This document shows positions 8,438 through 64,000 of a DNA stretch of 64,000 nucleotides, in pieces. The stretch is from Hypericibacter terrae. GTDB taxonomy: Bacteria > Pseudomonadota > Alphaproteobacteria > Dongiales > Dongiaceae. The notes beneath the pieces were generated by a model. It had not been told where the DNA came from. It worked only from the letters and a program-made list of their open reading frames with translations, and ran no database searches. Where the stretch lies: the NCBI RefSeq assembly GCF_008728855.1, contig NZ_CP042906.1:2294001-2358000 (forward strand). Direction: 5' to 3'. Each line of letters starts with the position of its first letter. Position 1 is the stretch's first letter. The translations under genes and the position numbers were made by a program.

Positions 8438-9700
8438 TTACATCGCCGGCAGCTTGATTGCCTTCACAGCCGCTACAAGCTGCTCCTCACTCGGCCCCTT
8501 AGAATACCGCCCAAGCCCCTCTCCGGGGCGCTTATGACCAATCAAGGCATCTGCCACCCAGGGCATTACGTCAGCATGTTCCATGAGCGTCCGCGCTCGG
8601 TGGCGCCAGGAGTGATCCGCGACTAGGTGAGGATCGGTTAGCCCGATGCTCCGCAGCTTGCGACCAACGCGCTTGCTCAGGGCGCTCCCGTAGTCTCCGA
8701 ACCTGTCGGGCTTCAATTCATGAAACAGCTTGGGTCCCCTGCCACCGGCAGGGCTGGCGTGACCCGCCGCTTTCCTGTCGAGCAACATCTTTCGCACCGA
8801 AGGGGCCACGACAGGCACACGGCGGGCGGCAGCTTTCGTCTTGCCCTCCCTTACCTCCAGCCACACCACCTTGCCATTAGCAGTCACGTCAGCTGGCTCT
8901 AGGCCGGTGATCTCCTCAAGGCGCATCCCCGTCACCGCGGCGACCGACACAACGTCGCGGTCTACACCGTCCAGGGCCGCCAAAAACCTGATGGCCTCCG
9001 CCTCGGTGAACGCGCGGCGGTCGCCATTGTCGCCCTTCACCGCGAGCCTCTGGTTGAGCCAGGGGTTGCCCTCGACGTGCCCACGGCGCTCAAGCCAGCG
9101 CCACAGGGCGGAGTAGGTCGAAATAATCCGGTTCGCGGTAGCGGCCTTCCTACCTTGCGCCAACACGTCAGTCACAAAGGCGCCGACAGTCTTGCGGTCC
9201 ATCTCGCCGACCGTCTTGTGGCGTGCGGTGAGCACCGCAAGCGCGCGGCGATGCTGATAGGCGCCCTTCTCTGGGTAGCCCGCCTCGGCAAGCCACTTGT
9301 CCGCCATGTCTTCGATCATGACCGCGTCACCGGTCGCTACTGAGTAGAACAGGCCGGCCGCCTCAGTGCCGTGTTTCTTTTCGATCTCCTCTGCCCGGTC
9401 GCCGAGAAGCAGGGGGACGATTGGGCCAAGCTCGTCGTCGTAGTTGCCGCGCTCTATCTCCTCCGTGATGCTCTGGCGCCACCGCTGGGCCTCTGCGATC
9501 AAGGGGGAGTTGCCGTTGGCCTTCTCAATCTGGCGCTTCCAGAGGGCGACTAGGGGGAGGGCGCGGCGGCGCGCTACCGTCTCACTCTCGGTTTGGAGGG
9601 ACTTGACGAAGCGGGGTTTGCCGACCGCCTCGCGGACGGCTTCGGGGATTTCAAGGACGGCGTACCAGCGACGGCGGCGTTTCTGAATGTAGGCGGGCAT
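8438..9700 (-). CDS. int: Tyrosine recombinase, phage-type integrase
   Basis: This 420-residue integrase starts at MPAYIQKRRRRWYA (ATG 9698-9700, GGAA 10 nt upstream; an earlier GTG exists). The N-terminal part resembles the DUF6538/SAM-like arm domain of proteobacterial island integrases. The catalytic domain shows Arg in AVTGMRLEEITGL, HSWRHR (His-x-x-Arg), GHKRPGEGLGRY with the nucleophile Tyr399, and the usual short tail. It would integrate and excise the element at an attachment site probably to its right. It is convergent with the AbiTii gene, 28 nt apart. Confidence 0.9.
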   Translation of the reverse strand: MPAYIQKRRRRWYAVLEIPEAVREAVGKPRFVKSLQTESETVARRRALPLVALWKRQIEKANGNSPLIAEAQRWRQSITEEIERGNYDDELGPIVPLLLGDRAEEIEKKHGTEAAGLFYSVATGDAVMIEDMADKWLAEAGYPEKGAYQHRRALAVLTARHKTVGEMDRKTVGAFVTDVLAQGRKAATANRIISTYSALWRWLERRGHVEGNPWLNQRLAVKGDNGDRRAFTEAEAIRFLAALDGVDRDVVSVAAVTGMRLEEITGLEPADVTANGKVVWLEVREGKTKAAARRVPVVAPSVRKMLLDRKAAGHASPAGGRGPKLFHELKPDRFGDYGSALSKRVGRKLRSIGLTDPHLVADHSWRHRARTLMEHADVMPWVADALIGHKRPGEGLGRYSKGPSEEQLVAAVKAIKLPAM

Positions 9701-9954
9701 GTGGCGTTCCGAATGGGCGTCGACCACACACGATTACCACACACGCACCCCCTTGAGAATCCCAGGAATGGCGCGGTTCCTAGCGTTTTTCTGTTGCTGG
9801 GTTTTCCTTCCCCTTGGGGACGCCAGCCATATCAATGGTTTAGAGAATTCTCCCTTCGCGCTGCCCAAGATTTGTCCAATATTGCAGGTGCTATGTTGGG
9901 GCTGATGCTGCGCTGCCTATATAGGCCGCCAGAGTGCCGGAAGCGGTGCCGAAT

Positions 9955-10005
9955 ATTCTCCATTAGAGAATTTTTTGCTTGATGAGAGATTCTCTATTGG
10001 AGAAA
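9955..10005. promoter_or_regulatory. Duplicated operator of the toxin-antitoxin pair
   Basis: Two inverted repeats of the form ATTCTC-N5-GAGAA(T/A) lie at 9955-9971 and 9989-10005, centres 34 bp apart, directly before the toxin gene. The second site overlaps the toxin ribosome binding region (GGAGA). A perfect palindrome GAGAATTCTC at 9843-9852 reuses the same half-sites. These are the expected binding sites for the XRE antitoxin or toxin-antitoxin complex. The rest of 9701-9954 has no gene that I can support. Confidence 0.7.
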
Positions 10006-10013
10006 ATACCTTC

Positions 10014-10268
10014 GTGCAGTTGATTATTGCCCCCGCCGCCCTGAAGAGCCTCGGCCTCCTGCCGAAGAAAGACGCCTTGGCCCTTCTGGCGAAGCTCGAA
10101 GAAGTGGCGGCCGATCCCTTCGGCTCGCATCCTTGGGCTACACGCCTTCAGGGATCGCGCGGTTATCGATGGCGGCATGGCAGCTGGCGGGCGATTTACC
10201 GCATCGACACGGTCGAGCGAACGGTCGTCGTCGAGGCGGTCGGCAATCGAAAGGAGATTTATCGATGA
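10014..10268 (+). CDS. RelE/HigB-like toxin
   Basis: This 84-residue protein starts at a GTG (10014) after GGAGA and shows the compact RelE/ParE pattern: LIIAPAALKSLGLLPKK, a helical middle, ATRLQGSRGYRWRHGSWRAIYRI and a final strand VVVEAVGNRKEIYR. RelE-type toxins cleave mRNA at the ribosome. The conserved basic residues around RWRHGSWR fit that family. The stop overlaps the antitoxin ATG (ATGA), giving the toxin-first order typical of HigBA-like modules. Duplicated operators lie just upstream. Confidence 0.85.
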   Translation: MQLIIAPAALKSLGLLPKKDALALLAKLEEVAADPFGSHPWATRLQGSRGYRWRHGSWRAIYRIDTVERTVVVEAVGNRKEIYR

Positions 10269-10687
10269 GCGGAACGGCAAAGAAAAAGAGCGCTGAGGGT
10301 GCCGAGCTCGTGACCCTGCCCCGGGCGGAATATGAGGCGCTGCTGGCCCGCATCGAGGATGCCGAAGACGCGGCCGTCGTGGCCGCGGCCGAGTTGCGCG
10401 AGCGCGCGGTCGGCAAACAACGGGCGCGACGCGACCATCTCTCCAGCGAGATGGCCAAGCGTATGATCCTGGGCGAGAGCCCGGTGAGGATCTGGCGCGA
10501 GCATCGCGGCCTGAAGGCCCTGGCGCTGGCCGAGAAAGCAGGACTACCGGCCGGCTATCTCTCCGAGATCGAGACCGGCAAGAAGCCCGGCTCGCTCGAT
10601 GCCATGAAGCGCATCGCCGACGCGCTCGAGGTGCCGCTCGATAATCTGGTGCGGACCGACGGGACGGCTGGCAAGCGAGGCCGGTGA
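10265..10687 (+). CDS. XRE-family antitoxin
   Basis: The 140-residue protein has an acidic, Ala-rich N-terminal half with a helical LPRAEYEALLARIEDAEDAA segment, probably the toxin-binding or dimer part, and a C-terminal Cro/CI helix-turn-helix at about residues 78-130 (LKALALAEKAGLPAGYLSEIETGKK). It would neutralise the upstream RelE-like toxin and repress the operon through the ATTCTC-N5-GAGAAT sites. The ATG overlaps the toxin stop, so the two are translationally coupled. Confidence 0.88.
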   Translation: MSGTAKKKSAEGAELVTLPRAEYEALLARIEDAEDAAVVAAAELRERAVGKQRARRDHLSSEMAKRMILGESPVRIWREHRGLKALALAEKAGLPAGYLSEIETGKKPGSLDAMKRIADALEVPLDNLVRTDGTAGKRGR

Positions 10688-10942
10688 CGGCGCCAAGTTG
10701 CCGTCGATCGGCGTCCCGGTGTTCTCATCGAGAATCCCGGGGCCTTGCAGTCGGGGTCTGGCGATGGGTGCTTCGGCGTCCAATAATCCCACTGTCGCGC
10801 TCAGCCTCACGGCTGTAGTTGTGAAAGACCGCGCGCGGCCATCCGGCCGTCCACGGGCTCGCCCGTCGCCCGATCGCGTCGCCCTGGCGACGCGTCAGCG
10901 GGCACTGGAAAACGCGACATCGGAAGGGGGCGCCGGAAGCCG

Positions 10943-11542
10943 ATGAAGACCTTCTTGATCAACATTCGTAATCTGGCGATCGCCGGTTTTTTCTTTCTGC
11001 TGCCCGTCGTCGTCGTCTTCGTCATCCTGACCAAGGCGTGGGTCGGGCTCACCTCGGTGGGCAAGAAAATCGCCCAGGTTTTCGGCCTGAATTCCTTCAT
11101 CGGATTCGGCGGAACGACCGTGGCCACGGGGGTGCTTCTGATCGCGCTCTGCCTGCTGTGCGACCTGCTGATGCGTTACGCCTTCCTGGCGGCGTTCCGT
11201 CAGTCCGTGGAAGGGCTGCTCCTCGAATACCTGCCCGGCTATGACACCTACAAATCCATGGCCGAAGAGAAACTGCAGCACAAACAACGGATCCTCCCTT
11301 ACGCGAGCGCCCTGATCAGGCGGCAGGATTACTGGCAGCCCGCTTACATCGTCGAGCCGGATGAAGATGGGGACTGCGTCCTGCTGGTTCCCGACATTCC
11401 CGACACGACCAAGGGAAGCCTGCTGATCGCGACGGTCGATCAGGTCAGGCTGCTGCCGCCGGTCCCCGCCAACGATCTCGATGCTTGCTTGAGAAGGTCG
11501 GGGAAGGGATTGTTGAGTGAGCTTCGCATTCACCGGCACTGA
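10943..11542 (+). CDS. DUF502 family membrane protein
   Basis: This 199-residue protein has two N-terminal membrane helices (about residues 11-33 and 58-80) followed by a cytoplasmic or periplasmic beta-rich domain. The order and spacing, the FFFLLPVVVVFVILTKAW first helix and the later EYLPGYDTYKSM and VPDIPDTTKGSLLI stretches match the DUF502 family, of unknown function in proteobacteria. The 255 nt upstream of it contain no gene. It is followed 73 nt later by a secreted metallo-beta-lactamase-fold gene, possibly co-transcribed. Confidence 0.75.
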   Translation: MKTFLINIRNLAIAGFFFLLPVVVVFVILTKAWVGLTSVGKKIAQVFGLNSFIGFGGTTVATGVLLIALCLLCDLLMRYAFLAAFRQSVEGLLLEYLPGYDTYKSMAEEKLQHKQRILPYASALIRRQDYWQPAYIVEPDEDGDCVLLVPDIPDTTKGSLLIATVDQVRLLPPVPANDLDACLRRSGKGLLSELRIHRH

Positions 11543-58278: not shown

Positions 58279-59286
58279 ATGGCGACGACGGAAGTGCTGC
58301 CGGCGACGGAGCTGCTGGCACGGATCGGACGAATGGTGGAACGATCGCTCCCGCTCTGGGGGCTTTCGCCCTCCGCCCGCGCGACCATGATCAATCATTC
58401 CGAGAATGTGACCTACCGGGTCGACGACCCGGCCAGCGGCGGGCGGTCGATCCTGCGGGTCCACCGCGTCGGCTACCACAGTCAGGACGCGATCCGGTCC
58501 GAACTGCAATGGATGGAGGCGTTGCGCCGCGAGGCGGGGGTGGAGACGCCCGAGACCATCCCGGCCAAGGATGGCTCGATCATCCAGATCTTGCGCAGCC
58601 CCGAGCTGGACCATCCGCGCCACGCCGTGATGTTTACCTTCCTCGACGGCAAGGAGCCGGCCGAGGATGAGCTGCTGGGCCCGTTCGAGCGGTTGGGCGA
58701 GGTCTCGGCCCGGATGCACCGCCATGCCGCCGGCTGGGCGCTTCCGCCGGGCTTCACCCGCCATGTCTGGGATTTCGAGACCGCCTTCGGCGCCAACCCG
58801 ACCTGGGGCCGCTGGCAGGACAGTTTCGGCGTGGACAAGCCGACCCTGGAGATCCTGGGTCGGATGGAAAAGACCATCGGGCGGCGCCTCGAGCGCTTCG
58901 GCAAATCGCGCGAGCGCTTCGGGCTTTGTCACGCCGACATCCGTCTGGCCAATCTTCTGATCGACGGGACCCGCACCAAGGTCATCGATTTCGACGATTG
59001 CGGCATCAGCTGGTATCTCTACGACCTCGGCACGGCGTTGAGCTTCATCGAGCATCGTCCGGACGTGCCCGACCTGGTTCAGTCCTGGCTCAGGGGATAC
59101 AGCAAGGTGATCCGGCTCTCGCGCGAGGAGGAGGCCGAGATTCCGACCTTCATCATGTTCCGCCGCCTGCTGCTGGTGGCCTGGATCGGATCGCATGCCG
59201 AGACCGACCTCGCCAAGAGCCTGGGCGCACCCTATACGCAGGGAAGTTGCCGCCTGGCGGAGCGATATCTCAGCCGTTTCGCCTGA
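58279..59286 (+). CDS. Aminoglycoside-phosphotransferase-fold kinase of the microcompartment pathway
   Basis: The 335-residue protein has the APH/choline-kinase-like catalytic core: HADIRLANLL (H218, D220) and a metal-binding VIDFDDCG (D237). Known members phosphorylate small hydroxyls. In the RMM-type locus a kinase of this family phosphorylates 1-amino-2-propanol, giving the substrate of the aminotransferase-like phospholyase. Start ATG 58279 is taken inside a longer open frame because an upstream GTCAA element and the conserved start fit. It precedes the SDR gene by 46 nt. Confidence 0.8.
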   Translation: MATTEVLPATELLARIGRMVERSLPLWGLSPSARATMINHSENVTYRVDDPASGGRSILRVHRVGYHSQDAIRSELQWMEALRREAGVETPETIPAKDGSIIQILRSPELDHPRHAVMFTFLDGKEPAEDELLGPFERLGEVSARMHRHAAGWALPPGFTRHVWDFETAFGANPTWGRWQDSFGVDKPTLEILGRMEKTIGRRLERFGKSRERFGLCHADIRLANLLIDGTRTKVIDFDDCGISWYLYDLGTALSFIEHRPDVPDLVQSWLRGYSKVIRLSREEEAEIPTFIMFRRLLLVAWIGSHAETDLAKSLGAPYTQGSCRLAERYLSRFA

Positions 59287-59332
59287 CACCGAAATCGATC
59301 GCAGGGACGAACCCTGCGGGCCATGGGAGGAA

Positions 59333-60127
59333 ATGAACATGCTGACTTCGATCGCAGGACGTTCCGTCGTCGTTACCGGCGCCAGCAAGGGCATCGGCAA
59401 GGGCATCGCCCGCGTCTTCGCCAGCAAGGGCGGCAAGGTGCTGGTGGTTTCGCGCCACCTGGCCGAGGCGGAGAAGGCCGCCGACGAGATCAAGCGTGCC
59501 GGCGGTACGGCAGCGGCCTTCGCCGGCGACGTCTCCAAGCCCGCCGACATGGAGAAGATGGCCGAGGCCGCTCTCTCGCGTCATGGCGGGATCGACATCC
59601 TCTGCACCAATGCCGGGATCTTTCCGGCCGCCAAGATCAAGGACATGACAGCCGAGGATTTCGACAATGTGATCGGCGTCAATCTCAAAGGCACCTTCCT
59701 CGCGATCAAGGCCTGCCTGCCGGCGATGAAGCGCAAGGGGCAGGGCCGGATCGTGATCACCTCCTCGATCACCGGCCCGATCACGGGCTATCCCGGCTGG
59801 ACCCACTACGGCGCCTCGAAGGCGGGTCAGCTCGGCTTCATGCGCACGGCCGCGATTGAACTGGCACCCTTGAAGATCACGGTCAATGCGGTGTTGCCGG
59901 GCAATATCCGGACCGAGGGGTTGGACAGCATGGGGCCGGAATACGCGAAGAAGATGAGCGATTCGGTGCCACAGGGCCGATTGGGCTCGGTCGAGGACAT
60001 CGCCTACGCGGCGCTCTTCCTCGCCTCCGACGAAGCCGCTTATATCACAGGGCAGACCATCATCATCGATGGCGGGCAGATCCTTCCGGAATCCCTGATG
60101 GCGCTGGAGGAAATGGCCGTTTCCTGA
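59333..60127 (+). CDS. SDR, probable 1-amino-2-propanol/aminoacetone dehydrogenase
   Basis: The 264-residue protein has VVVTGASKGIG (GASKGIG at 16-22), TNAG, SS at 144-145, Y159 and K163 (HYGASKAG), and a C-terminal IDGGQILPESL. Start ATG 59333 follows GGAGG. In the RMM-type microcompartment an SDR reduces aminoacetone to 1-amino-2-propanol; that assignment is by context and is not proven by sequence alone. The gene is the second of the locus. Confidence 0.75.
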   Translation: MNMLTSIAGRSVVVTGASKGIGKGIARVFASKGGKVLVVSRHLAEAEKAADEIKRAGGTAAAFAGDVSKPADMEKMAEAALSRHGGIDILCTNAGIFPAAKIKDMTAEDFDNVIGVNLKGTFLAIKACLPAMKRKGQGRIVITSSITGPITGYPGWTHYGASKAGQLGFMRTAAIELAPLKITVNAVLPGNIRTEGLDSMGPEYAKKMSDSVPQGRLGSVEDIAYAALFLASDEAAYITGQTIIIDGGQILPESLMALEEMAVS

Positions 60128-60282
60128 GAGATCGGTTGAGCGTCGGCGGCGGCCGCGCTCGGCCCAGGGGCTCCGCGCCGGATCTTCGGATTCGGCCGGG
60201 GCCCTTTTCATTGCCGCTCGATGACGGTCCCGCGCAAAAGCGTTTGATAGCAATCTAACAAAATTGGCAGCGTCGCAGCCGC

Positions 60283-60311
60283 TGTCAAAAGCGGCACCGG
60301 TTGCTGTCAAG
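60283..60311. promoter_or_regulatory. GTCAA-repeat element before the phospholyase gene
   Basis: GTCAA half-sites at 60284 and 60306 (22 bp apart); the first lies inside an inverted repeat GCCGCT/AGCGGC. It lies 104 nt before the ATG in a 287-nt gap, so a second promoter of the locus is likely. Compare 58182-58209. Confidence 0.5.
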
Positions 60312-60414
60312 CCGCCGCGAACCGATGCGGCGCATCTTGCCTCCCACCCGTCGCCGGCGATTCCGACGCTTCCGGTCCTGCCGGCGGGGAAGAGTCCCCG
60401 AGGGAGCGCGCGCG

Positions 60415-61707
60415 ATGTACGACTACGGCTTCTTCTCCTACGACTCCAAGGAAGAGTTCATCGAGAAATCGAAGAGCTTCTGGAATCCGGGAAAGACCCA
60501 GTCCTGGCAGGATTTCGGCGTCGATCTCGTGATCGATCGCCGTGAGGAATATTTCCTCTGGGACATGAGCGGCAAGCGGCTGATCGACGTTCACCTGAAC
60601 GGCGGCACCTACAGCCTCGGCCATCGCAATCCCGAGCTCATCGCCACCATCGAGCTGGCGATGAAGCATTTCGACATGGGCAACCATCATTTCCCGAGCC
60701 TGGCGCGCACGGCGCTGGCCGAGGCGCTGCTCAAGACCTGCGCGCCCAACATGCAGTATGTGATCTATGGCAGCGGCGGCGGCGAGGCGATCGACATCGC
60801 CATCAAGTCGGCGCGCCATGCCAAGCAGCGCCGCAAGATCGTCTCGGTCATCAAGGCCTATCACGGCCATACCGGCCTCGCCGTCTGTGCCGGCGACCAG
60901 CGCTTCTCCGAGCTGTTCCTGTCCGATCGGCCCGACGAATTCATCCAGGTGCCGTTCAACGATCTGACGGCGATGGAGGATGCGCTGCGCAAGCGCGATG
61001 TCGCCGCCGTCATCATGGAGACGATCCCCGCGACCTACGGCTTCCCGATGCCGAAGGAAGGCTATCTGACGGGCGTCAAGCGCCTCTGCGAGAAATATGA
61101 CGCGCTCTACATCGCCGACGAGGTGCAGACCGGCCTGATGCGCACCGGCGAGATGTGGGGCTGCTACAAATACGGCGTCGAGCCCGACATCCTGGTCACC
61201 GGAAAGGGTATCTGCGGCGGCATGTATCCGATCGGCTGCGTGGTCGTCACCGAGGAGTCCGGCGCCTGGCTGCACAAGGATGGCTTCGGCCATATGTCCA
61301 CCATGGGTGGCGCCGAGCTCGGTTGCATCGTGGCGATCAAGGTGCTCGAGATCTGCAACCGTCCCGAAGTGCGCTCGATGGTGAATTACATCTCCAGCCT
61401 GATCGGGCGGCGGCTCGAGCAGATCAAGGCGATCTATGGCGATTTCTTCGTCGGCATCCGCCAGAACGGCGTGGTGATGGGGCTCGAGTTCGACCATCCC
61501 AAGGGCGCCATGTATGTGATGAAGGCGCTCTACCGGAACGGCGTCTGGGCGATCTTCTCGACCCTCGATCCGCGGGTGCTCCAGTTCAAACCGGGTCTCC
61601 TGCTGACGCGCGATCTGAGCGAGGAGCTGATGGATCGCGTCGAGGTCTCGATCGCGCAGGCCCGGGCCGAGGTTCTCGGCCTCAAGGGCAAGCGGGCGGC
61701 AGCGTGA
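60415..61707 (+). CDS. Class III aminotransferase-like phospholyase
   Basis: The 430-residue protein has the class III PLP fold: GSGGGEAIDIAIKSAR, YHGHTGLAV, DEVQTGLMRTG and the PLP lysine K264 in VTGKGICGG. In the RMM-type locus a member of this family acts as a phospholyase, splitting phosphorylated 1-amino-2-propanol into propanal, ammonia and phosphate; ethanolamine-phosphate lyase is a related activity. A longer frame extends upstream but MYDYGFFSYDSKEEF at 60415 is the natural start. Its stop overlaps the ALDH GTG start. Confidence 0.82.
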   Translation: MYDYGFFSYDSKEEFIEKSKSFWNPGKTQSWQDFGVDLVIDRREEYFLWDMSGKRLIDVHLNGGTYSLGHRNPELIATIELAMKHFDMGNHHFPSLARTALAEALLKTCAPNMQYVIYGSGGGEAIDIAIKSARHAKQRRKIVSVIKAYHGHTGLAVCAGDQRFSELFLSDRPDEFIQVPFNDLTAMEDALRKRDVAAVIMETIPATYGFPMPKEGYLTGVKRLCEKYDALYIADEVQTGLMRTGEMWGCYKYGVEPDILVTGKGICGGMYPIGCVVVTEESGAWLHKDGFGHMSTMGGAELGCIVAIKVLEICNRPEVRSMVNYISSLIGRRLEQIKAIYGDFFVGIRQNGVVMGLEFDHPKGAMYVMKALYRNGVWAIFSTLDPRVLQFKPGLLLTRDLSEELMDRVEVSIAQARAEVLGLKGKRAAA

Positions 61708-63320
61708 GCTCGGCCATGTCACGGATGCAGCGACGGACGGACGAAAAGGCGCCCGGCGGCCCGCCCGATCTGGTGATCAAGGCCGCCAGCGCCAGCGAGA
61801 CCATGAAGGACGAAGCCCGCCTTGCGCGCGCCGGCATGATGCTGGAGCGGGGCCGCTGGGCCGCGGCCGCTTTCGCCCGGCTCGACCGGGACAGCACCTT
61901 GCGGATCGCCAAGGCCGCCGCCGATGCCGGCTTCGCCAAGGCCCAGCATTATGCGGAGTGGGTGGTCAAGGAGACCGGCTTCGGCGTCGTCGAGCACAAG
62001 AAGATCAAGAACGAGCTTTGCAGCCGCGGCATCTACGACTACTACCGCGACGAACCGCTGACCGGCCTCAAGATCGACGCCGAGCGCAAGATCGTGGAAG
62101 TGGCGCGGCCGGCGGGCGTGGTGTTCGCGCTGACGCCGTCGACCAATCCGGTTTCCACCGTCTTCTTCAAGATCATGATTGCGCTGCTCAGCCGCAACGC
62201 GATCATCGTCAGCCCGCATCCCATGGCCAAGGCCTGCTGCGCCGATGCGGTGCGCTGCATGGCGGAAGCCGCCATGGCCGCGGGCGCGCCCGACGGCGTG
62301 GTGCAGGTGATCGACGAACCCAGCATCCCCCTGGTCACGGCCCTGATGGCCGATCCGCGCACGGACGTGATCCTGGCGACCGGCGGCTCGCCCATGGTCC
62401 GCGCGGCCTATTCCTCGGGCAATCCCGCGATCGGCGTCGGGCCCAGCAATGTCCCGGTGCTGGTCGATGCGACGGCCGACCTGGCCAAGGCCGCCAAGCG
62501 CATCGTCGTCAGCAAGTCCTTCGACAATTCGGTGCTCTGCACCAACGAGTCGGTGCTGATCGCCGAAGCGGCCATCGCCGACAAGCTGCTGCGGCATATG
62601 CAGAACGAGGGGGCCTATCTCTGCTCTGAGGAGGAGACCGAGCGGCTTCGCGCCTATCTCTTCCCGGGCGGAAAGTTCAATCTCCGGGCGCTGGGCCGGG
62701 ATGCGAACACGATCGCCGGGGAAGCCGGCATTCGTGCGCCCGCAAAAACCAGGATACTTCTGGCGCCCTTCGATCTGCCGATGCCGGAGGAGGTCTTCGC
62801 GCGCGAGAAGCTCTGCCCCGTGCTGGGCTTCCTGAGGGTGCCCAACGCGCAGCGTGGGGTCGAGGCGGCGCGGGCCTTGTTGCGCTATAGCGGCGGCGGC
62901 CATTCGGCCGCGATCCACAGCAAGGATTCGCGGACCGTCCTGGCCTTCACCATGGCCGTCAATGTGCTTCGCGTCGTGGTCAATGCGCCTTGCAGCCAGG
63001 GGGCGGCGGGGTTCGACACCAATCTCGCGCCGACCATGACGATCGGAACCGGCTTCTTTGGGCGCAGCTCCATCGGGGAGAATGTCGGGCCGCAGCATCT
63101 CGTGCACTGGACCCGCATCGCCTACAACAAGGACGCGAGCGAGGTCTTCGGCGACTATACGCATCTCGAGCCCTGGGACGTGCAGGCGCCGGACGGGACG
63201 GAAGGGCTGGCGATGCCGGCACCCCGCCAGGGCGGCAGCGGCGACGATCTCGGCGAGATGCGGGAAGAGATCCGCCAGGTCATCATCGAAGAGTTGCGCA
63301 GCCTCTTCATGGGTTCCTGA
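61704..63320 (+). CDS. CoA-acylating aldehyde dehydrogenase of the microcompartment
   Basis: The 538-residue protein has the BMC aldehyde dehydrogenase layout: PSTNPVSTVFFKIMIALLSR, ATGGSPMVRAAYSSGNP, catalytic C279 in FDNSVLCTNES and a C-terminal extension after a Gly/Ser-rich linker. The last 20 or so residues (EMREEIRQVIIEELRSLF) form an amphipathic helix of the encapsulation-peptide type that directs cargo into the shell. It would convert propionaldehyde to propionyl-CoA. The GTG start overlaps the phospholyase stop; ATG 61716 is an alternative. Confidence 0.88.
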   Translation: MSSAMSRMQRRTDEKAPGGPPDLVIKAASASETMKDEARLARAGMMLERGRWAAAAFARLDRDSTLRIAKAAADAGFAKAQHYAEWVVKETGFGVVEHKKIKNELCSRGIYDYYRDEPLTGLKIDAERKIVEVARPAGVVFALTPSTNPVSTVFFKIMIALLSRNAIIVSPHPMAKACCADAVRCMAEAAMAAGAPDGVVQVIDEPSIPLVTALMADPRTDVILATGGSPMVRAAYSSGNPAIGVGPSNVPVLVDATADLAKAAKRIVVSKSFDNSVLCTNESVLIAEAAIADKLLRHMQNEGAYLCSEEETERLRAYLFPGGKFNLRALGRDANTIAGEAGIRAPAKTRILLAPFDLPMPEEVFAREKLCPVLGFLRVPNAQRGVEAARALLRYSGGGHSAAIHSKDSRTVLAFTMAVNVLRVVVNAPCSQGAAGFDTNLAPTMTIGTGFFGRSSIGENVGPQHLVHWTRIAYNKDASEVFGDYTHLEPWDVQAPDGTEGLAMPAPRQGGSGDDLGEMREEIRQVIIEELRSLFMGS

Positions 63321-63323
63321 TCC

Positions 63324-63929
63324 ATGGCCGAGTTGCGCTCCTTCATCTTCATCGACCAGTTGCAGCCGCGCACCATGTGCTATCTCGGCAGCTGGATCCG
63401 CGGGAGCCTGCCGCGCACCAACATGGCGGCGCAGATCATCGAAGTGGCGCCGGGGCTCGATATCGAGCCAATCACCGACGTGGCCCTGAAACATGCCGAG
63501 GTGCAGAGCGGCATCCTCGTGGTCGAACGCCAGTTCGGCTATCTGGAGATCCATTCGCGCTCGACCGCAGCGGTCCGGGCCGCCAGCCAGGCGGTGCTCG
63601 AGTTCCTCGACACCACGGCAGACAAGGCGACCAAGCCGCAGATCCTGGCCTCCAAGATCATCACCCGCATCGATCATCTCCATGCCTTCCTGATCAACCG
63701 GAACAAGCTGGGCTCGATGATCCTGCCGGGCGAATCCCTGTTCGTGCTGGAGATGCAGCCGGCGGCCTACGCCATCCTCGCCACCAACGAGGCGGAGAAG
63801 GCGGCGGACATCAAGGTCATCGACTACCGGATGATGGGTGCTACCGGCCGGGTCTATCTCAGCGGCACCGAGGACAATGTGCGGGCGGCCTCGATCGCCG
63901 CCCAGCAGGCGTTGGAGGCATTGCAGTGA
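63324..63929 (+). CDS. Tandem BMC-domain shell protein (BMC-T)
   Basis: The 201-residue protein is a two-repeat microcompartment shell protein: the first half (about 1-98) holds RSFIFIDQLQPRTMCYLGSW, AAQIIEVAPGLDIEPITDVALKHAEVQSGILVVERQFG, read in parts, and the second half (about 100-201) has SMILPGESLFVLEMQPAAYA and VIDYRMMGATGRVYLSG. Such proteins trimerise into pseudohexagons with a central pore. It begins 3 nt after the ALDH gene and overlaps the next start (GTGA). It is the marker gene that identifies the locus. Confidence 0.88.
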   Translation: MAELRSFIFIDQLQPRTMCYLGSWIRGSLPRTNMAAQIIEVAPGLDIEPITDVALKHAEVQSGILVVERQFGYLEIHSRSTAAVRAASQAVLEFLDTTADKATKPQILASKIITRIDHLHAFLINRNKLGSMILPGESLFVLEMQPAAYAILATNEAEKAADIKVIDYRMMGATGRVYLSGTEDNVRAASIAAQQALEALQ

Positions 63930-64000
63930 GCGATCGGAAATCGGGCCTGGATCGCGAGGCGATGCGCCGGATGGTTCGCGAGGTGTTGCGCGACGCCCTG
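63926..64000 (+). CDS. 5' end of a further microcompartment-locus gene
   Basis: A GTG at 63926 overlaps the shell-protein stop (GTGA) and opens a frame to the window end, 25 codons. The visible start MSDRKSGLDREAMRRMVREV is an amphipathic helix like an encapsulation peptide or the N-terminus of an associated protein. The product cannot be identified from this piece. Confidence 0.6.
   Translation, partial: MSDRKSGLDREAMRRMVREVLRDAL

Follow-up and report, generated by a model that had tools for sequence, protein, structure and literature searches.

What does the gene cluster at the right edge of this stretch of the Hypericibacter terrae genome encode, and which substrate would its products break down? 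The stretch analysed (hereafter the window, 64,000 nucleotides) comprises bases 2294001-2358000 of a single-contig genome of 5.89 Mb. A preliminary description of the window listed in order a kinase, a short-chain dehydrogenase/reductase (SDR), a class III phospholyase-like enzyme of the pyridoxal phosphate (PLP) type, a coenzyme A (CoA)-acylating aldehyde dehydrogenase (ALDH) and a bacterial microcompartment shell gene (BMC-T), and compared them with the set known from the Rhodococcus and Mycobacterium microcompartment (RMM). All five genes were found on the plus strand, and the locus likely encodes an RMM1-type (AAUM/Aut) metabolosome for the breakdown of 1-amino-2-propanol, its substrate, enclosure and expression being read from the genes, as the substrate was in the preliminary description.

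The window holds the first half of a complete microcompartment gene set, the remainder of which lies past the right edge and was located in a longer extract (L003; window coordinate = L003 + 55999). The features are as follows.

58279..59286, plus strand: kinase of the APH fold, predicted (S)-1-amino-2-propanol kinase, AutD (Pfam APH 1.2e-26; PDB 6ef6)
59333..60127, plus strand: SDR, predicted 1-amino-2-propanol dehydrogenase (aminoacetone/aminopropanol interconversion), AutB (Pfam adh_short_C2 3.5e-63)
60415..61707, plus strand: class III PLP enzyme, predicted amino-alcohol-phosphate phospholyase, AutA (Pfam Aminotran_3 5.8e-67)
61716..63320, plus strand: CoA-acylating ALDH with a C-terminal helix resembling an encapsulation peptide, AutC (Pfam Aldedh 1.7e-22)
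63324..63929, plus strand: BMC-T shell protein 1 (T1), MSM0275 type (Pfam BMC 6.8e-8; PDB 5l39)
63926..64474 (L003:7927-8475), plus strand: gene X, PduM-like, predicted core-to-shell assembly protein; first 25 codons inside the window (63926..64000)
64474-64743 (L003:8475-8744), plus strand: BMC-P (EutN_CcmL 1.2e-17); outside the window
64783-65061 (L003:8784-9062), plus strand: BMC-H (BMC 4.4e-27); outside the window
65141-65770 (L003:9142-9771), plus strand: BMC-T2, or T2 (PDB 5suh); outside the window
65801-66883 (L003:9802-10884), minus strand: AraC regulator, convergent with the operon (NF049968, 302.7 bits, cut-off 250); outside the window

The preliminary description had expected the locus to run beyond the window and proposed extending it rightwards in search of BMC-H and BMC-P; both were found directly downstream together with a second BMC-T, accompanied by X and the AraC gene. 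A BMC family search of the genome led to two places, H and T1, and T2 was recovered with T1 as the query. The intergenic gaps from the kinase through the AraC gene are 46, 287, 8, 3, -4, -1, 39, 79 and 30 bases, so that the overlapping starts ascribed to the first five genes are absent up to T1 and occur only after it (4 bases, then 1 base). The 287-base gap between the SDR and PLP genes leaves room for a second promoter, although none was predicted; the sequence of this gap gave short matches alone, the best of 18 bases. A terminator scan of the region predicted five, with 5.3 expected.

The assignment to RMM1 is based on the identities of the encoded proteins. The closest PDB chain to the kinase, in which HxDxxxxN and DFD motifs are present, is 6ef6 (2.6e-85; next sequence 1.6e-12), while those closest to the SDR are 6ci8 (2.4e-98) and 6ci9 (1.2e-97; next 2.9e-86). 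We take 6ef6 to be the aminopropanol kinase, and 6ci8 and 6ci9 the aminopropanol dehydrogenase, of Mycobacterium smegmatis. T1 is closest to 5l39, "RMM microcompartment shell protein MSM0275" (9e-94; next 1.8e-50), and T2 to 5suh, "MSM0271 protein" (3.9e-92; next 2.4e-44). On this reading the best PDB match of each of the four is an RMM protein of M. smegmatis, that of T1 and T2 by its entry name. Together with a gene block shared with actinobacterial loci, these matches bear out the resemblance to the Rhodococcus and Mycobacterium set. The genes that define RMM1 are all found at the locus, namely a CoA-acylating ALDH, an MSM0275/MSM0271 BMC-T pair, BMC-H and BMC-P, and a PLP enzyme with an SDR and an APH phosphotransferase. 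The absence of a diol dehydratase separates RMM1 from RMM2 according to a passage of PMC4207490; a scan for it confined to the nine proteins of the operon and the regulator detected none, which fits RMM1 and not RMM2.

The PLP enzyme is 64-74% identical to those actinobacterial RMM orthologues that are nearly full-length, and the ALDH is 61% identical to a Nocardioides RMM ALDH. Its identity falls to 47% with the ALDH of the Rhodococcus jostii plasmid pRHL2 and to 36% with that of a Methylibium BMC. Among the enzymes compared, both are therefore closest to actinobacterial RMM orthologues and less similar to the others; the preliminary description had allowed that they might cluster with unrelated microcompartment types. 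An ethanolamine-utilisation (EUT) or choline type was rejected as the classification on the same grounds, along with a search of the genome in which the ethanolamine ammonia-lyase EutB was not found. The cargo-tag-like tail noted earlier on the ALDH was recovered as a conserved helix, with the strict motif in 70 of 80 C-termini and same-helix variants in eight; the other two (L068, L115) read into other sequence.

The ALDH profile matches raise the question of a different amino alcohol, such as ethanolamine, which would be degraded via ethanolamine phosphate and acetaldehyde. The closest NCBIfam model is the acetaldehyde-CoA dehydrogenase AdhE (445 bits, below cut-off), followed by the acetylating EutH_ACDH model (398 bits, also below cut-off) and PRK15398 (256 bits), and the BMC locus of pRHL2 is situated near an ethanolamine permease gene. 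However, the operon holds an SDR closest to 6ci8/6ci9, the pRHL2 aminotransferase is only 25% identical to the PLP enzyme, and the genome has a separate kinase-PLP frame whose closest PDB match is an ethanolamine-phosphate phospholyase (6tor). Use of a different amino alcohol is consequently considered unlikely. The separate frame is found at G000:C1:4852279-4854606 (L135), where 824-residue frames carry adjacent APH-kinase and PLP-domain matches and the PLP part matches 6tor at 6.5e-118. It constitutes a second kinase-phospholyase pair, remote from the microcompartment locus.

In the pathway favoured here, that of 1-amino-2-propanol, the SDR would interconvert aminoacetone and 1-amino-2-propanol and the kinase would yield 1-amino-2-propanol phosphate, from which the PLP enzyme, acting as a phospholyase, would release propionaldehyde, ammonia and phosphate. 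The tagged ALDH would convert propionaldehyde to propionyl-CoA inside a shell composed of two BMC-T proteins, one BMC-H and one BMC-P, with X linking the enzyme core to the shell and the AraC gene product regulating the operon. Propionyl-CoA would then enter central metabolism via methylmalonyl-CoA. A passage of PMC8156839 likewise relays a published proposal by which RMM converts aminoacetone to propionyl-CoA. A methylmalonyl-CoA-mutase-type gene was identified in the genome over cut-off, giving propionyl-CoA an outlet, and aminoacetone may come via threonine dehydrogenase, the gene for which was also found over cut-off.

The lyase step is suggested by residues of the PLP enzyme. In the alignment to putrescine aminotransferase, EPIQGEGG is replaced by ETIPATYG and TIRIEPP by VLQFKPG, with Gln in place of Arg. 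In aminotransferases this Arg binds the carboxylate of the acceptor. Among 68 PLP orthologues (near-copies and the window enzyme itself counted in), E, P, A, T, G and F of the first motif and Q, K, P and G of the second are each invariant, as is the TGKG lysine. When the second PLP enzyme of the genome was aligned with two phospholyases of solved structure, 6tor and 5g4i, these were likewise without the QGEG glutamate and had Lys replacing Arg, while isoleucine epimerase in the same alignment output retains QGDG and Arg. The change of Arg to Gln and the loss of the QGEG glutamate in all 68 orthologues were therefore taken as backing phospholyase chemistry. The invariant residue pattern would thus favour a lyase over a transaminase; overall similarity does not.

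Several observations weigh against a phospholyase-based aminopropanol organelle. In the PDB search the PLP enzyme is nearer to putrescine aminotransferase (4.9e-47) than to the phospholyase 6tor (1.9e-26), it is only 25% identical to the phospholyase-like, kinase-linked PLP enzyme of its own genome, and its Gln-x-Lys differs from the Lys-x-Lys or Lys-x-Arg of phospholyases. The hydrophobic moment of the window ALDH tail is not above that of shuffles (p 0.26), so the tag reading rests on conservation; a p of 0.05 or less against shuffles was obtained for nine of 78 ALDH tails and for 40 of 76 N-termini of X. No sigma-70-like promoter was predicted in the scanned region, where 1.0 was expected. 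The Kbl gene (over cut-off) adjoins that of threonine dehydrogenase, and its product would normally consume the aminoacetone precursor. No amino acid permease was detected among the operon proteins; this and a GntR regulator are described in part of PMC4207490 as ancillary to RMM1, and although the operon has neither, they were not counted as defining.

The closest PDB matches and the class III aminotransferase family would also suit the same RMM-type organelle with a true aminotransferase, converting aminopropanol or aminoacetone to lactaldehyde or methylglyoxal, scenarios of which are proposed in passages of PMC4207490 and PMC6620236. This is regarded as improbable, given the replaced arginine and lost glutamate in all 68 orthologues and the need for another role for the kinase, for which PMC6620236 suggests, in one passage, the conversion of lactyl-CoA to phospholactate. 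The invariant residues allow a direct test between the two published chemistries.

How widespread the locus is was assessed with T1. Relatives of T1 were found in 11 of 385 genomes of the class, in three of 398 genomes of the phylum (the window's own included), in three of 72,556 plasmid records at E 1e-40, and in 12 of 61 related genomes, all 12 belonging to the Dongiaceae, of which 17 genomes were searched. In one of these 12 (G389) the locus is without PLP enzyme and kinase. A scan of one genome each for 84,980 species returned 356 stretches with a T1 relative, the best 80 of which were kept: 49 from Actinomycetota, 28 from Pseudomonadota, one from Spirochaetota and two others. The alphaproteobacterial setting recognised in the preliminary description is correct, but it is less surprising than was supposed, as proteobacterial Aut/RMM loci are in print and 12 of 17 family genomes carry T1.

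A tree was built from the ALDH, T1, P, H and T2 by a quick method; it is unrooted, 78 of 87 loci entered it, and the tree program warns of long branches. It contains no row named Mycobacterium, because only the best 80 of the 356 stretches were kept, and was made without three loci carrying a TauD-family dioxygenase (L040, L041 and L045). The order ALDH-T1-X-P-H-T2 is seen in 75 of the 78 rows, the other three, at contig ends, being without T2 alone. This conservation across phyla rules out chance assembly or unrelated neighbours. All 31 proteobacterial rows, the window and its genus mate included, fall on one side of a short branch (SH-aLRT 96), with 43 Actinomycetota, one row labelled Spirochaetota, two others and R. 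jostii pRHL2 on the other. The latter side reads PLP-ALDH-T1-X-P-H-T2-kinase-SDR in 39 of 47 rows. The window and its genus mate have an order of their own, kinase-SDR-PLP-ALDH-T1-X-P-H-T2 with a convergent AraC gene. On the pRHL2 plasmid of R. jostii RHA1 (L133:7560-14490), T1, a hypothetical protein, BMC-P and BMC-H each occur twice under the same accessions, and these duplicated shell genes adjoin a distant class III aminotransferase near the ethanolamine permease.

The window pair forms a separate branch, and forcing it together with eight other family loci was rejected (p-AU 2e-50), so the family may have acquired RMM loci more than once. Placing the pair with the actinobacterial rows was not rejected (p-AU 0.178), and T1 scores 315.7 bits against MSM0275, close to the 318-324 bits it reaches with four Dongiaceae genomes (separate searches, only roughly comparable). 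These results, with the failure of the pair to join its family, speak for a recent transfer of the locus from an actinobacterium. Such a transfer is nevertheless rather unlikely, since the pair lies with the proteobacterial rows across the SH-aLRT 96 branch and no actinobacterial row has the gene order of the window or an AraC homologue. For the older event argued in a passage of PMC6620236, an actinobacterial origin followed by transfer to Proteobacteria, the unrooted tree neither supports nor refutes the argument.

The AraC/QhpR-like gene beside the operon probably controls it; a literature search on QhpR brought up no helpful paper among the matches listed. Homologues accompany 17 of the 31 proteobacterial rows and none of the 47 others; in the same 31 rows the PLP enzyme is present in 26, the kinase in 24 and the SDR in 18.

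For gene X, neither Pfam nor NCBIfam gave a match at E 0.001. The window protein does not match the Pfam family PDU_like (PF15953), a PF15953 search of its own genome gave no match at E 0.01, and two of 45 relatives match this family weakly (best 0.0018). Frames of X were extracted from 76 of 81 loci. The N-terminus is leucine/arginine-rich in 74 of these, and the C-terminus is T-P-L-A-R-D-like in 73, with T-A-L-A-R-D in the other three. A model of the Dongia deserti orthologue has a helix at residues 4-23, a linker and two small domains (mean pLDDT 84, pTM 0.37). In hhalign, X against a single PduM aligned only over the last 26 C-terminal columns (prob 57), but against ten PduM proteins (extracted from ten of 14 PduM loci) it aligned end to end over 142 columns (prob 85, score 40.5, 18% identity). 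None of 100 column shuffles reached 40.5 (mean 12.2, maximum 23.2), the reversed profile gave 21.0, and four other RMM proteins scored at most 16.1. When the profile of X was searched against the PDB, no match fell below E 0.09, and Foldseek on the model returned nothing at E 0.001; VIA-align likened the last domain to Cas1 N-terminal domains (Z up to 6.9 over 53-58 residues), which may be a mere common arrangement. A plasmid search with X returned R. jostii only.

On this profile evidence X is PduM-like by remote homology and not a PF15953 member. It shares with PduM of the Pdu microcompartment the N-terminal helix, the C-terminal motif and the end-to-end alignment, as well as its position directly before BMC-P: in the ten PduM loci the frame directly after PduM was recognised by eye as PduN (BMC-P), as P follows X. 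The two differ in their 18% identity and in the match to PF15953. According to a passage of PMC12108088, PduM carries a signal sequence and is without known homologues beyond the Pdu organelles, and part of PMC9132943 describes it as taking part in core-shell binding; a literature search for a PduM homologue in RMM microcompartments found none. By analogy X is probably the connection between enzyme core and shell, and the link to PduM suggests a mechanism, open to testing, by which RMM cargo is fastened.

Variant loci retain X and the shell genes under other upstream enzymes. In four genomes spanning two families, a TauD-family dioxygenase gene is found directly before the ALDH, three of them from one genus (L040, L041, L045) and the fourth from another class (L157).

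L040:7126-12430 (also L041, L045) and L157:6746-11609: TauD-led RMM-type ALDH/shell operon

The TauD proteins match PF02668 at 4.8e-60 (L040) and 1.2e-58 (L157) and are 47% identical to each other. The closest PDB entry to that of L157 is a taurine dioxygenase (7.1e-66, the match ending at residue 268 of 361), and beyond this match both proteins continue with a linker and C-terminal stretches that resemble each other. In the ~19.5 kb examined around each TauD gene, homologues of the kinase, PLP enzyme and SDR were not found. Among three more loci from the class of L157, the PLP enzyme is present in two, and shell genes alone are matched in the remaining one. A plasmid search with the TauD protein gave 80 records, and in the literature on microcompartments and TauD or taurine dioxygenase, only work on anaerobic sulfonate cleavage mentions a microcompartment among the matches listed. 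The TauD loci possibly encode an oxygen-using, sulfonate-related metabolosome. In L040 the X frame (9693-11180) has an inserted segment of ~120 residues that appears SnoaL/NTF2-like by eye.

A second variant (L042, L080, L110, L111) forms one clade (SH-aLRT 100) with ALDH, X and shell genes, and with AraC in three of the four. No RMM PLP enzyme or kinase was found nearby, although three of the four contigs are below 10.1 kb and some absences may be missing sequence. After the L042 locus (L042:2880-11524) come genes for a flavoprotein resembling sarcosine/dimethylglycine dehydrogenase and for an APH protein resembling choline kinase, while L080 and L111 are flanked by ABC transporter genes.

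The TauD variants suggest one shell chassis serving several pathways. For and against appear evenly balanced on the proposal that ALDH-T1-X-P-H-T2 is a shared chassis with interchangeable aldehyde-producing front ends, in which X, as a remote PduM homologue, is the common core-to-shell linker. The front ends would be the kinase with the phospholyase (as in the window), the TauD dioxygenase with an added C-terminal helix, and perhaps further ones. If this is true, metabolosome classes share an assembly part hitherto regarded as peculiar to Pdu organelles, and a dioxygenase front end would give an oxygen-using metabolosome.

With respect to neighbouring genes, the hybrid kinase that the preliminary description placed next to the locus is real, with CHASE, HisKA, HATPase and receiver domains. 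It is a neighbour in only one of 15 loci of relatives, that of the same genus, and a functional tie was rejected. Also beside the locus, on the minus strand (L003:11040-17981), is a 2313-residue frame with many near-identical repeats, by eye resembling a large repetitive surface or adhesin protein.

The RMM1/AAUM/Aut type is already known, proteobacteria included; what this example shows is a swap of regulator, residue evidence on the chemistry of the PLP enzyme, and the PduM-like X. Passages in print report an Aut/RMM locus in Verminephrobacter eiseniae (PMC6620236), RMM2 in Paracoccus yeei (PMC8156839) and an RMM2 outlier in the Epsilonproteobacteria (PMC8217296), which share with the present case an RMM-type locus in Pseudomonadota. 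A passage of PMC6620236 states, from two proteobacterial genomes, that the cluster has no kinase gene; the in-cluster kinase seen here in 24 of 31 proteobacterial rows qualifies that statement. The locus provides a complete non-actinobacterial RMM1 set with an in-cluster kinase, open to study in environmental Alphaproteobacteria. The wider interest lies in X and the TauD variants, and RMM loci are common in the Dongiaceae. Compared with the RMM1/AAUM/Aut loci of M. smegmatis and Rhodococcus, the locus has the same kinase, SDR, PLP enzyme, CoA-acylating ALDH, MSM0275/MSM0271-type BMC-T pair, BMC-H and BMC-P, and, like the actinobacterial rows, X before BMC-P. It differs in having the kinase and SDR genes upstream, whereas in 39 of the 47 actinobacterial-side rows they come downstream, in an operon without a permease, and in an AraC gene standing where described RMM1 loci have GntR.

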